A stretch of 34,868 bases of DNA from Patescibacteria group bacterium (lineage in GTDB: Bacteria > Patescibacteriota > Patescibacteriia > Patescibacteriales > JAQTRU01). The DNA lies in NCBI GenBank assembly GCA_028711415.1, contig JAQTSG010000008.1, positions 1 to 34,868 of the forward strand, given 5' to 3'. The notes under the pieces were generated by a model. The model was not told where the DNA came from. It searched no databases and saw only the letters and a program-made list of their open reading frames with translations. Numbering within the stretch: position 1 is the stretch's first letter; each line of letters opens with the position of its first letter. Of this stretch, positions 6,417 to 11,098 are shown piece after piece. Made by a program: the position numbers and the translations under genes.

Positions 6417-7583
6417 ATGAGCGAGAAGAATATTAAGTTAATCACCTCGGAGTCCGTGACCGAGGGCCATCCGGATAAAGTTTGCGACCAAATCAGCGAC
6501 GCGGTTTTAGACGAGATGTTAAAACAAGACCCGGACAGCCATACCGGCATAGAATGCTTCTGCACGACCGGTTTGGTTTTAGTCGGCGGCGAAGCTAAAA
6601 CCAGAGCTTATGTTAATCTGGAAAAAGTTGTCAGAAGAGTTTTGCGGGAGATCGGTTATGATAAGCAGGAATATGGATTTTGCAGCGATGATGTTGGTGT
6701 CATCGCTACTTTGCATGAGCAAAGCCCGGATATTGCTCAAGGCGTTGAAGGTACGGGCGATTATAAAGAACAAGGCGCCGGCGACCAGGGTTTGATGTTC
6801 GGCTATGCCACAAACGAAACTCCGGAATTTATGCCTTTGCCTATAGTGCTGGCTCATAAACTCACAAAAAAATTAGCCCAAGTCAGAAAAGAAGGAGTTT
6901 TGCCTTATTTGCGGCCGGATGGCAAAAGCCAGGTAACTGTGCAATATGAAGACGGGAAAGCTACCAGAATTGAAACCGTGGTAATTGCCGCTCATCACAG
7001 TGAAAAAATAGAAGAAGAAAAATTAAGGGCGGATATAAAAGAAAAAGTAATAAAACCGATCTTAGGCGATTTATTTGATGACAAAACTAAAGTTTTCATA
7101 AACTCCACCGGCCGTTTTGTTTTCGGCGGACCGCCGGCCGATGCCGGTTTAACGGGGAGAAAAATTATCGTTGACACTTATGGCGGGGTCGGGGCTCATG
7201 GCGGCGGGTGCTTTTCCGGTAAATGCCCGACTAAAGTAGACCGTTCCGGCGCTTACATGGCCAGGCACGCGGCGAAAAATATCGTAGCGGCCGGCTTAGC
7301 GGAAAAATGCGAACTCCAGGTGGCCTATTCTATCGGCGTGGCGGAGCCGGTCGGAATTTATGTAAACACTTTCGGCACCAACAAAATTCCGGAAGAAAAA
7401 ATTATTGATTTGATAAAAAAGAATTTTGATTTCCGGCCCAAAGCCATAATTGATTATCTTAATTTAAAGAGGCCAATTTACCAGAAAACCGCGGCTTATG
7501 GACATTTTGGCCGCGATGATAAAGATTTTATCTGGGAGAAAACGGATAAGGCGGAACTGTTAAAGAAAGAAGCGGGATTATAA
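6417..7583 (+). CDS. metK: S-adenosylmethionine synthetase
   Basis: 388 residues, normal length for methionine adenosyltransferase, which forms SAM from methionine and ATP. Seen are the N-terminal [13 protein letters not shown] block (metal-binding Asp at D20), [12 protein letters not shown] near residue 120, [12 protein letters not shown], and KVDRSGAY. Two residues differ from the usual GGGAFSGKDPTKVDRS consensus: this protein has [16 protein letters not shown] (about residues 261-276), a Cys replacing the Asp after the first Lys. The catalytic Lys residues and the Asp of KVDRS are kept. It is the last gene of the kinase-ahcY-metK module. Palindromic spacers on both sides leave it unclear whether the three form one transcript. 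Confidence 0.97.
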
Positions 7584-7726: not shown

Positions 7727-8140
7727 ATGGAGAAAGTTATGTGCTTCGGCACCTTTGATAATTTGCATCCCGGTCATTTATCATACTTAAGTCAGGCTAG
7801 GGGATACGGAGACTATTTAATTGTAATTGTGGCTCGTGATGTGAATGTGAAAAAGTTAAAAGGAAAATTTCCGCGCCAGAAGGAAAAATCGCGGTTAGGG
7901 AAGATAAAAAATATAAGTTTTGTTGATAAGGCCGTTTTGGGCCAGCTAAAGGATAAATTTAAAGTAATAAAGAAATTCAGGCCGTCAGTTATTTGTTTAG
8001 GATATGACCAAATGGTTAATATTAATGGACTGAAAAAATTTTTTTCTGGTAAAATTATTAGGTTAAAGCCGTATAAGGAGAATGTCTATAAGTCTTCAAG
8101 GTTATCTAAAATAAATGGAGGGCAAGCGCGGGAAGTCTAA
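7727..8140 (+). CDS. Cytidylyltransferase-like nucleotidyltransferase, probable FMN adenylyltransferase (RibL-like)
   Basis: 137 residues, a single nucleotidyltransferase alpha/beta-phosphodiesterase domain. The GTFDNLHPGH motif (residues 8-17, HxGH type) binds the nucleotide; the usual second signature (ISSTxIR type) is replaced by a KSSRLSK tail. Relatives include glycerol-3-phosphate cytidylyltransferase, RfaE C-terminal domains and archaeal FAD synthetase RibL. The next gene, 18 nt downstream, carries a riboflavin kinase domain, which favours FMN to FAD conversion. The substrate is inferred from this context. No Shine-Dalgarno is visible. Confidence 0.8.
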   Translation: MEKVMCFGTFDNLHPGHLSYLSQARGYGDYLIVIVARDVNVKKLKGKFPRQKEKSRLGKIKNISFVDKAVLGQLKDKFKVIKKFRPSVICLGYDQMVNINGLKKFFSGKIIRLKPYKENVYKSSRLSKINGGQAREV

Positions 8141-8158
8141 TCTTCTCGCCTTTAGTTT

Positions 8159-9433
8159 ATGTTTGGATTTCGTTTAGAAAAGAAGAGTCTTATTGGCGCC
8201 GGAGCTATAATGCTGGCCGCCCTGTTTTGGAGTTTAGATGGAGTTTTTATCAGGCCGAAATTTTATAGTCTGCCGCCGTCTTTAGTGGTTTTTTTGGAGC
8301 ATTTTTTGGGGTTCATAGTTTTAGCTCCTTTTTTAATTTTGGGTTGGTCTAAGGTAAAGCTCCTTAGGAAAAAAGACTGGGGAGCGATTTTTTGGGTAAG
8401 TATTTTTGGCGGATTGCTTGGGACGCTAATGATTACCAAGGCGTTTTTTGCCGCGATTGACGGCGAAGTTACTTTTGCTACTGTCGTGATCTTACAGAAA
8501 CTGCAGCCGGTCTTTGCCCTGATTATGGCGCGTCTGATTTTAGGGGAAAGACTTAGCCGCCGTTTTTATCTCTGGGCCGCTTTCGCCATCGTCGCCGCTT
8601 ATTTTTTGGCTTTTGGCAAAACCGGTTTAAGTTTTGGCCAGTTGAATTTTTCCCACGAGGCCGCCTGGTTTGCGATTCTCGCCGCTTTCGCTTTTGGCTC
8701 TTCCACGGTTTTTGGCAAAAGGATTGTTAACCACCTTGATTTTAAATCCACCACGGCCTTGCGTTTCGGCCTTACAAGTTTACTGGCCTTTTTTCTTATT
8801 TTATCTAACGGAGATTTGTTTAAGATAGGCGAGGTAGGTGGCCTATACTGGAAACTTTTGGCAGTAATAGTTTTTACGAGCGGAGCCGGAGCGATGTTTA
8901 TTTATTATTTTGGCTTAAAAAGAATAACCGCTTCAACCGCGACCATCTGCGAGCTGGCCTGGCCTTTATCCTCGGTTATTTTAGACTATCTACTTAATAA
9001 AAATATTTTAACCAGCGGGCAGATTATTGCCAGCGCAGTTTTGCTTTTATCTTTCTTTATGGTGGTTAAAGAGGGCGGCAAAAAAATTGAATTTGAGGCA
9101 AGGGTCATAAAGGGAATGGGCCGGGGAGAAAAAATCGGCCTGCCGACAATTAATCTTGACCAGGTTAATTTAGACATAGATTACGGAGTTTACTTGGTAG
9201 AGGCGGAAATCGACGGGGTAACCCATAAAGGATTACTGCATTTCGGCCTAAAAGAGACTTTTGGCGAGGCCGCTTCCGCCGAACTGATTATTAGGGAATA
9301 TATTTTGAATATTACCCAAAAAAATGTTAAAATAAAGGTAGGCCACAAAATAAGGGAGATAAGGAAATTTAACAGTCAAAATGAGCTGAAAGAGCAAATT
9401 AATAAGGATCTAGAGGAGTTAATGGACAAATAG
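8159..9433 (+). CDS. EamA/DMT-family transporter fused to a C-terminal riboflavin kinase domain
   Basis: 424 residues. Residues 10-305 form about ten membrane segments in two EamA-like halves (first ends near 155, second 165-305), as in drug/metabolite transporters. Residues 311-424 are a soluble domain with riboflavin kinase features: GRGEKIGLPTINL at 321-333 (the family PTxN nucleotide/metal loop), DYGVY at 341-345, a candidate catalytic Glu at 375 (SAELI) and the IREIRKFNSQNELKEQI tail. The usual NPTF is here KETF. Some EamA-family proteins (RibN, ImpX) are riboflavin importers, so the simplest reading is riboflavin uptake followed by phosphorylation to FMN on the inner face, with the upstream adenylyltransferase making FAD. 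The domain assignments are seen; substrate and coupling are inferred. Confidence 0.85.
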   Translation: MFGFRLEKKSLIGAGAIMLAALFWSLDGVFIRPKFYSLPPSLVVFLEHFLGFIVLAPFLILGWSKVKLLRKKDWGAIFWVSIFGGLLGTLMITKAFFAAIDGEVTFATVVILQKLQPVFALIMARLILGERLSRRFYLWAAFAIVAAYFLAFGKTGLSFGQLNFSHEAAWFAILAAFAFGSSTVFGKRIVNHLDFKSTTALRFGLTSLLAFFLILSNGDLFKIGEVGGLYWKLLAVIVFTSGAGAMFIYYFGLKRITASTATICELAWPLSSVILDYLLNKNILTSGQIIASAVLLLSFFMVVKEGGKKIEFEARVIKGMGRGEKIGLPTINLDQVNLDIDYGVYLVEAEIDGVTHKGLLHFGLKETFGEAASAELIIREYILNITQKNVKIKVGHKIREIRKFNSQNELKEQINKDLEELMDK

Positions 9434-9453: not shown

Positions 9454-9547
9454 AAAGTTTGTAAAGTTATAAAGTTCATAAAGTTATGAAGTTGATTAAC
9501 CCATGATATTCCAAAGACTTTATAAACTTTATAACTTTATTAACTTA
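9454..9547. repeat. AT-rich imperfect palindrome overlapping the 5' end of the next ORF
   Basis: The left half (9454-9498) uses aaagttataaagttcataa words and the right half (9513-9547) ctttataaactttataactt words, pairing around CCATGATATT. It is the same family as 6303-6392. The first ATG of the next ORF lies in the centre, so its first 15-20 residues are repeat-derived. Confidence 0.7.
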
Positions 9548-11098
9548 TTACTCAATAACAAAGTGTTTGATTATCTGCAAAAATTTAATCAGTTGCCTAA
9601 AAATCTGCGGGACAAAGTCTCAACGTCTTTGGTAATGGCGGCGATTGATGAACTGGAGAAGAAATATAATGTAAGTTTGGCATCCCTAGTTATGAGGGTG
9701 ATGATAAAAGAAGTGAGACTGCCTGATTTAGCTGGTTATTTTATAGAAAAAGAGAATTTAGACCCGGGCAAATCGGAAGAGCTGGCGAAAATAATGGCGG
9801 AAAAAATTTTTACTGGCGTTAAAGATTATCTGGGAGCCGAAGCTGGCGGGGGAGAAAAAAAGCCGGAGGCCCTTCGTCAAACTTTCTCCGGCTCCGCCTC
9901 ACTGGCGGATTTGGCGGATAAGCGGGGCGGGGAAGAAAAGCCCGCTAAAGTTGAAGCTAAAAGAGAAGCGACTCCGGCTGTTGAGGGAGCGAGTTTTTTC
10001 TTTTCCTCCGAAGATGAGGAAGAAATAAGAGAATTAACGAAAAAGATAAACGGAGAATTTAAAGTATCTTTAACAGATGAGGAAATTGAGGATAAGTTAA
10101 ATAAAATTATTACCTCTTCCCAGATAAATTTTGGCAGTCAAGAACTTTTAGACCGCTTCCGAAGTATTTTAAAAACTTATTTGCGGGGCATAAGAGACAG
10201 GATTGAAACTAAGCAGACTTTAAAGAAAATTTTTTCCGACGGCGGTTTGGGTTTTGATGATAATTCAGCTGATGAGGTTTTAAAGATTACCGACAGTCTG
10301 GCGGGAGGGAAAGAAATTTCTCTAAGGCCGCCGTTAAAGATAAGATTGCCCGAGGATAGAATGGCCGGCAAAGAAATGGAAGAGAAAACCGGCGCTTTAA
10401 AAAATATTGGAATGCGGGATGTTGATTATAGTTTTTCTTCTTTGGCAGCCCCCAAAGAAAAAAAAGAAGATGTCTCTGGCCCGCCGGTTAATCTGCCAAC
10501 AGAAGAAAAAGTAAGAGAAGAGCCGATAAAATTAGATATAAGCCATGAAATCTCACCTCCGCCTCCCATGGTTATAAAAAAACCGCCGGTCGTTGACAGA
10601 ATAAAAGTGGTTAAGCCCAGCCGTCCGGAAGTAAAAATTCCGGGCAAAGATGATGTTTTTCTAAAAACGCCGGAACCGGAAAAACCGGCAGCAAAGGCGC
10701 CTTCGCGGACGCCCACGCCTATCATAAGCGCGGGTAAGAGAAAAATGGAAGATGTAAAATATATTCCGCCTAAGGTAATGAACCCGATAGATGAATTGCG
10801 GTATATGGATCTAATAAATTTCCGGCGTCTTAGCCCGGAAGCGGAGAAACAGATAGCGAAAATAAGGGAGAAAATAAACCTCTTAGAGGAGGAAAATTAC
10901 AGTCGGCGGATAGAAGGAGTGAGGGGTTGGCGTCAAAGTCCGGTAAATAGACTATATCTTTCCCTTGGCCAGCAAAGCATTAGCGAGAGGAAGCCGGTTG
11001 ATGCTATAATAGAAGAAAGGAAAAATACCGGCCAGGATTATTTAACTTTAGAAGAATTTAAAGCCATAATGGATTTAAACAAAGAATTACGGTTCTAA
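9503..11098 (+). CDS. Uncharacterised protein of the T4SS block with Pro/Lys-rich centre
   Basis: Up to 531 residues, not recognised. Residues 21-115 form a conserved-looking helical domain, residues 120-150 are low complexity (partly encoded by a GC-rich repeat near 9860-9930), 165-270 are helical and charged, 325-425 are Pro/Lys/Glu-rich and probably disordered, and 430-531 are a compact C-terminal domain (RRLSPEAEKQIAKIREKI onward). There is no membrane segment. The ATG at 9503 lies in a palindrome whose translation gives residues 1-20; GTG at 9563 or ATG at 9635 are alternative starts, with GTG favoured because the sequence downstream looks genuine. It lies 281 nt before prgI on the same strand, and a cytoplasmic T4SS accessory role is inferred from position only. 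Confidence 0.6.
   Translation: MIFQRLYKLYNFINLLLNNKVFDYLQKFNQLPKNLRDKVSTSLVMAAIDELEKKYNVSLASLVMRVMIKEVRLPDLAGYFIEKENLDPGKSEELAKIMAEKIFTGVKDYLGAEAGGGEKKPEALRQTFSGSASLADLADKRGGEEKPAKVEAKREATPAVEGASFFFSSEDEEEIRELTKKINGEFKVSLTDEEIEDKLNKIITSSQINFGSQELLDRFRSILKTYLRGIRDRIETKQTLKKIFSDGGLGFDDNSADEVLKITDSLAGGKEISLRPPLKIRLPEDRMAGKEMEEKTGALKNIGMRDVDYSFSSLAAPKEKKEDVSGPPVNLPTEEKVREEPIKLDISHEISPPPPMVIKKPPVVDRIKVVKPSRPEVKIPGKDDVFLKTPEPEKPAAKAPSRTPTPIISAGKRKMEDVKYIPPKVMNPIDELRYMDLINFRRLSPEAEKQIAKIREKINLLEEENYSRRIEGVRGWRQSPVNRLYLSLGQQSISERKPVDAIIEERKNTGQDYLTLEEFKAIMDLNKELRF

Follow-up and report, generated by a model that had tools for sequence, protein, structure and literature searches.

A permease joined to riboflavin kinase and the probable salvage of flavins in Patescibacteria

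Introduction

Why should a riboflavin kinase be carried on the end of a membrane permease, and what would such a protein do for the cell that makes it? The question is raised by a gene of a Patescibacteria group bacterium, on contig JAQTSG010000008.1 of assembly GCA_028711415.1; the window, by which we mean the whole stretch of DNA analysed, is 34,868 nucleotides long and forms contig 30 in a genome of 1.1 Mb, 68 contigs and 96.9% completeness. We consider it likely that the gene encodes a riboflavin importer-kinase that traps the vitamin as flavin mononucleotide (FMN), with substrate, direction of transport and catalysis all predicted rather than observed. This interpretation draws on FMN riboswitches, gene adjacency and the exchange of genes at a conserved location taken together.

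Results

A permease and a kinase domain in one reading frame

The gene and its parts are as follows.

8159..9433, + strand: EamA-RFK fusion protein of 424 amino acids, ATG start, single open frame (Pfam; architecture shared by 18 of 78 relatives)
8159..9073, + strand: EamA/DMT permease part, residues 1-305, ten predicted helices (Pfam, AlphaFold model, Foldseek, charge count)
9077..9421, + strand: riboflavin kinase (RFK) domain, residues 307-421 (PF01687, 7.7e-23; PDB 1mrz, 8.9e-10)
9143..9154, + strand: PTIN motif (the PTxN of RFKs), residues 329-332 (sequence alignment of fusions)
9281..9283, + strand: E375, in alignment at the position of the conserved RFK glutamate (1mrz match; 19 of 19 fusions)

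An earlier note on this DNA had described an EamA permease joined directly to a riboflavin kinase, and the Pfam domain search bears out both the identification and the boundaries: EamA (PF00892) matches the product in two stretches (1.3e-29), and Flavokinase matches residues 307-421 with 81.5 bits against a curated cutoff of 19.6. In an alignment of 19 fusion sequences T330 and E375 are kept in all 19 and N332 in 18, and we take the PTxN motif and the catalytic glutamate to be active-site residues. The domain is complete, and by its sequence it is likely to be a riboflavin kinase for which phosphotransfer can be predicted.

An AlphaFold model built from the 19 fusions (mean pLDDT 87, pTM 0.88) ends the membrane helices at residue 305 and begins the first kinase strand at 310, with a linker of a few residues between permease and kinase. 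Foldseek relates the membrane part, which has the ten-helix EamA/DMT fold expected of an ImpX-like transporter, to the DMT proteins TPT (5y78), 5i20 and the choline importer LicB (7paf; TM-score 0.79 by target length), and the remaining part to the riboflavin kinases 1q9s, 5a8a and 1mrz. If ten helices are assumed, every one of the 19 sequences has 12-18 lysines and arginines in the loops that share a side with the termini, against 2-6 in the opposite loops; the positive-inside rule would therefore place the kinase in the cytosol, where ATP is.

The fusion is the single Flavokinase match in profile searches of its own genome, and neither FAD_syn (PF06574, the adenylyltransferase domain of RibF), lumazine synthase nor RibB (DHBP synthase) is matched there; two congeners agree on all four. 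A complete RibF hidden elsewhere in the genome was thus not found, and the suggestion that ribF and the riboflavin synthesis genes are absent holds, the latter for lumazine synthase and RibB, the two looked for.

FMN riboswitches and the cargo of the permease

Searching named genomes with the alignment of fusions gave 80 loci, and the nearest records are mostly Candidatus Falkowbacteria. Fusions are present in Falkowbacteria, Magasanikbacteria, Komeilibacteria, one Paceibacterota, one Moraniibacteriota, SR1 (translated with code 25) and one bin labelled Nanoarchaeota, in which the fusion is 58% identical to the window protein and reflects either misbinning or transfer (L101). Unfused homologues with 38-61% identity occur in Neomarinimicrobiota, Gracilibacteria, Bacteroidota, Cloacimonadota, Fusobacteriota and others. 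An Rfam search of 56 loci with unfused homologues, one batch of which also held three fused loci, identified an FMN riboswitch directly before the permease at three (L135, L138 and L142), all from Fusobacteria; at L142 the order is riboswitch, permease, RibH, ribD, RibE and ribBA (ribD and ribBA assigned by eye). The riboswitch at L167 lies 4 kb off before a different gene and is not counted.

FMN riboswitches were found at 73 sites in 58 of 61 Fusobacteriaceae genomes, and at 15 of the 71 sites read (two were left unread) the homologous permease is the first gene behind the riboswitch, most of the others being ribH operons. These riboswitch-led permeases are 37-44% identical to the window permease, and at two of the 15 sites (L142/L181 and L190) a ribH gene follows. 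We note that a sugar-kinase-like gene stands behind the FMN riboswitch at L208, L224 and L243, also in Fusobacteriaceae, and that PMC4418817 mentions a carbohydrate kinase under such a riboswitch. From these sequence relationships, the EamA/DMT part belongs to the same family as the FMN-riboswitch-controlled permeases, which are probably of the ImpX type.

A similar association is seen within the phylum. Among 379 Patescibacteria genomes RFK was matched in 108, mostly in frames of 115-200 amino acids, and was not matched in 271. The surroundings of all 107 RFK genes besides that of the window (577 kb) were scored with profiles: a permease is fused in one, adjacent within 300 bases in 22 and within 1500 bases in five; an ABC ATPase is fused in three; RibE/RibH is adjacent or fused in 23; a Wzy_C protein is present in eight; and 45 have none of these. 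The 577 kb contain 29 permease matches, of which one is fused to RFK and the other 28 stand on its strand at a distance of no more than 1.5 kb, with none farther off or on the opposite strand (matches below 60 bits were filtered in the neighbour scoring alone, and the lowest listed in the count of 29 exceeds 200 bits). The 28 share 29-46% identity with the window permease. The Wzy_C-type membrane protein, near RFK in L253, L257, L279, L282, L300, L313 and L318 and fused to it in L069, is perhaps a further flavin-linked membrane protein, or its position mere synteny.

A covariance model trained on 18 FMN riboswitches, that of L255 among them, reports a strong match before an RFK-adjacent permease at seven loci (L280, L287, L291, L293, L295, L346 and L348; 52-109 bits). 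For L348 and L346 the Rfam model reports the riboswitch too, in shorter stretches of the same sites (L255, 107 bits; L264, 73 bits). Because FMN riboswitches precede both homologous unfused permeases and permeases next to RFK, riboflavin is the likely cargo, as the earlier note had proposed.

Exchange of genes before the same kinase

The fusion lies among the following genes, which include the borders of a slot conserved in related genomes.

6417..7583, + strand: metK, upstream border of the slot (Pfam; synteny)
7727..8140, + strand: RibL-like nucleotidyltransferase of 137 amino acids, probable FAD synthase (PF01467, 3.5e-13; PDB 3glv, 3.8e-21; co-occurrence with RFK)
7766..7777, + strand: HPGH nucleotide-binding motif (sequence; alignment)
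9503..11098, + strand: downstream border gene, 531 amino acids, without a Pfam match (synteny)

We sampled 78 genomes of the order, that of the window included. RFK is present in 32, fused to EamA in 18 (frames checked by BLAST) and counted as stand-alone in 14, one of which (G069) probably has a fusion split over two contigs. Because 18 genomes, spread over five of the order's families, carry EamA and RFK in one frame, we reject an assembly artefact; the fusion is known from other Patescibacteria too. At the slot, relatives have metK, RibE, RibH, RFK and the downstream gene, and fused loci have metK, EamA::RFK and the downstream gene, so that the same kinase seems to be preceded either by the final synthesis genes or by the permease. 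Twelve of the 14 stand-alone RFKs come after RibE-RibH, and lumazine synthase is found in 12 of these 14 genomes versus one of the 18 with fusions. The downstream gene is present at eight of the 18 fusions, within the stretch read. In one genome (G035; L016 and L078) the fusion is tandemly duplicated, and one copy has an altered kinase motif (P to N, N to D) and possibly an inactive kinase.

The contrast is not simply one of synthesis versus import, since RibB was matched in none of the 78 genomes, while the same search was positive in 14 of 14 control genomes, and the ribE-ribH genomes thus seem incomplete themselves. Thirteen genomes of the order have lumazine synthase with riboflavin synthase beside it and no RibB match to account for the four-carbon precursor. 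If intermediates are traded in the group, as the relatives with ribE-ribH and without RibB could suggest, the permease might carry another flavin-related compound (a lumazine, a flavin analogue or a breakdown product), with RFK acting on that cargo or on riboflavin released in the cell. We regard this as improbable: homologues are under FMN riboswitch control and are placed before ribH genes, and riboflavin is the substrate of the RFK family.

The gene that precedes the fusion by 18 bases was correctly described as an HxGH nucleotidyltransferase (CTP_transf_like, HPGH). Both the domain and the motif are features of RibL, and the best PDB match, 3glv, is presumably an archaeal protein; together with co-occurrence with RFK, these make an FAD (flavin adenine dinucleotide) synthase role probable. 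An RibL-like gene is found in 30 of the 32 RFK genomes of the order versus four of the other 46, counting matches of at least 44% identity (at least 50% for fragments) and excluding weaker, paralogue-like matches. It sits in the metK slot in some genomes of each kind, is alone there in L089, and adjoins the fusion in just some genomes; six of the seven riboswitch-permease-RFK loci also have it in the cluster. FAD_syn was found in all four unfused-homologue genomes tested (three Fusobacteria and one Neomarinimicrobiota) and in none of three fusion genomes, and was not matched in the genome of L131, an unfused locus with an RibL-like gene. As to the slot's other border, the 531-amino-acid protein is conserved 3' of RFK at most of the order's slot loci, and the genes after it look, by eye, PrgI/VirB4-like.

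Origins of the fusion

The earlier note had supposed that a RibF was broken apart here, with its kinase moved onto a transporter, and had called the preceding gene suitable for FMN adenylylation. We find otherwise. No RibF-type frame occurs among the RFK matches of the 108 genomes (long frames were checked individually), the window RFK groups with the free RFKs of its own order's ribE-ribH operons (support 100/98), and the preceding gene resembles an archaeal RibL-like nucleotidyltransferase instead. The first two of these results reject a local split of RibF; RFK is free-standing across the phylum.

A single origin of all EamA-RFK proteins is rejected by approximately unbiased (AU) tests on 314 permease columns (p 4e-5) and on 123 RFK columns (p 0.02), whereas for the order alone the RFK tree is compatible with one EamA-RFK clade (p 0.355). 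From both trees, EamA and RFK were probably joined two or three times, the alternative being an ancient fusion that split again on several occasions.

In three genomes of one order, all three of that order examined, an ABC ATPase carries RFK as its C-terminal part (L067, L070, L071, L091 and L092). The gene adjoins one for an NMT1/THI5-type binding protein, with a BPD_transp_1 permease in the two tested, and Rfam reports an FMN riboswitch before the operon in two genomes (69.6 and 88.2 bits; gathering threshold 66.2); the third has a weak covariance model match (19 bits, E 0.002) 94 bases before the first gene. Kinase-on-transporter therefore arose with two unrelated transporters.

Compatible with an importer-kinase, and in our judgement possible but the weaker proposal, is that tight operons in small genomes gave rise to the fusion as a by-product, the parts being independent and their joining bringing nothing. 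RFK is indeed fused to other partners: 5-formyltetrahydrofolate (5-FTHF) cyclo-ligase (L066, L068), the riboflavin synthase RibE (L065, L073), a NUDIX domain (L072, where two EamA genes are adjacent) and the Wzy_C protein. Unfused neighbours are also commoner in the phylum, with 27 genomes against one fused among the 107. Against a by-product stand the probable two or three EamA-RFK fusions, which do not form one clade, the additional ABC-RFK fusions, and the retention of the fusion in 18 genomes of five families.

Discussion

Several observations weigh against riboflavin import coupled to phosphorylation. No FMN riboswitch was found at fused loci (43 sources, all but one with fusions), nor by two models across the window; nine of the 18 fusions of the order (families f3 and f8) lie outside the metK slot; and the Fisher values for co-occurrence ignore relatedness among genomes. 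Since RFK also joins unrelated partners, fusion alone is weak evidence of function. EamA proteins have many substrates and frequently export them, and NCBIfam gives the permease just below-cutoff matches to other transporters, including a weak one to the exporter YddG. The fusobacterial homologues fit the description of ImpX as riboswitch-controlled and usually a single gene, with F. nucleatum ImpX itself likened by description and not by sequence; its published primers (PMC4418817) have no close match at any locus, and a riboswitch sequence from a crystal structure, used as query for its genome, gave no adequate match.

The YddG match and the many exporters among DMT proteins could make the permease a flavin exporter or overflow valve with a merely co-located kinase. 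We think this very improbable: without matches to lumazine synthase or RibB the genome would have little to export, the closest folds include the importer LicB, and ImpX imports (PMC4418817). In that paper an E. coli auxotroph regains riboflavin uptake when given F. nucleatum ImpX or C. aurantiacus RibXY, and ImpX, of Fusobacteria and others, is FMN-riboswitch-controlled and usually monocistronic; ImpX differs from the window protein in being unfused, and is reported there only in species with riboflavin synthesis. The ABC-RFK operons share with RibXY the binding-protein and permease types (COG0715 and COG0600 in PMC4418817) and the FMN riboswitch, and differ in that the ATPase bears RFK. RibF has the RFK domain in common with the fusion (1mrz, 5a88), but is a bifunctional RFK/FMN adenylyltransferase; the fusion has no FAD_syn, which none of the 78 genomes of the order has over cutoff.

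LicB, a choline importer that pairs with the kinase LicA, offers the same DMT importer fold and the same logic of importer plus kinase, in separate genes and for another substrate. RibN, which we take to be of the DMT family, is a riboflavin importer of the type proposed for the window permease. It is set beside that permease by description, and is unfused and, in the available text, confined to Proteobacteria (PMC4418817). The CTP_transf_like HxGH nucleotidyltransferase of the window resembles archaeal RibL and the Entamoeba FAD synthase (PMC11423594); by alignment it is without the C-terminal cysteine pair of archaeal RibL, which in that account is likewise absent from the active Entamoeba enzyme.

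On the importer-kinase interpretation, the EamA/DMT part would pass riboflavin across the membrane, most likely by facilitated or ion-coupled entry, and the RFK domain, held at its cytosolic mouth by the short linker, would phosphorylate it with ATP to FMN. Unable to leave, FMN would be trapped and so pull uptake, and the RibL-like enzyme encoded just before the fusion would add AMP to give FAD. A more daring version, which we think rather doubtful, is vectorial phosphorylation, in which permease-bound riboflavin is passed straight to the kinase, so that ATP powers uptake and FMN emerges within the cell; if true, this would be a vitamin analogue of sugar group translocation, and the ABC ATPase-RFK proteins would have reached the same principle separately.

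In the Parcubacteria examined by a 2015 survey, riboflavin synthesis, the kinase, FAD synthetase and a transporter were all reported missing, as was the FMN riboswitch, although their conserved MurB and TrxB need flavin (PMC4508563); a 2022 study described pathways for riboflavin, FMN and FAD in Gracilibacteria (PMC9166423). A literature search of titles and abstract openings, with subscription journals mostly outside its scope, returned no description of a transporter-RFK fusion, and the words 'fused' and 'fusion' are absent from the available text of PMC4418817. The parts are of known kinds; the architecture, its recurrence and a Patescibacteria flavin salvage cassette were not found in the titles and abstract openings searched.

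Although 271 of the 379 genomes lack an RFK match, for part of the phylum the pieces missing in 2015 now appear (a kinase, an RibL-like enzyme, a transporter and a riboswitch), in their tightest form as one polypeptide. The recurring pairing of importer and kinase suggests how some Patescibacteria obtain flavins, and the flavin supply of these uncultured bacteria becomes testable by standard E. coli complementation.
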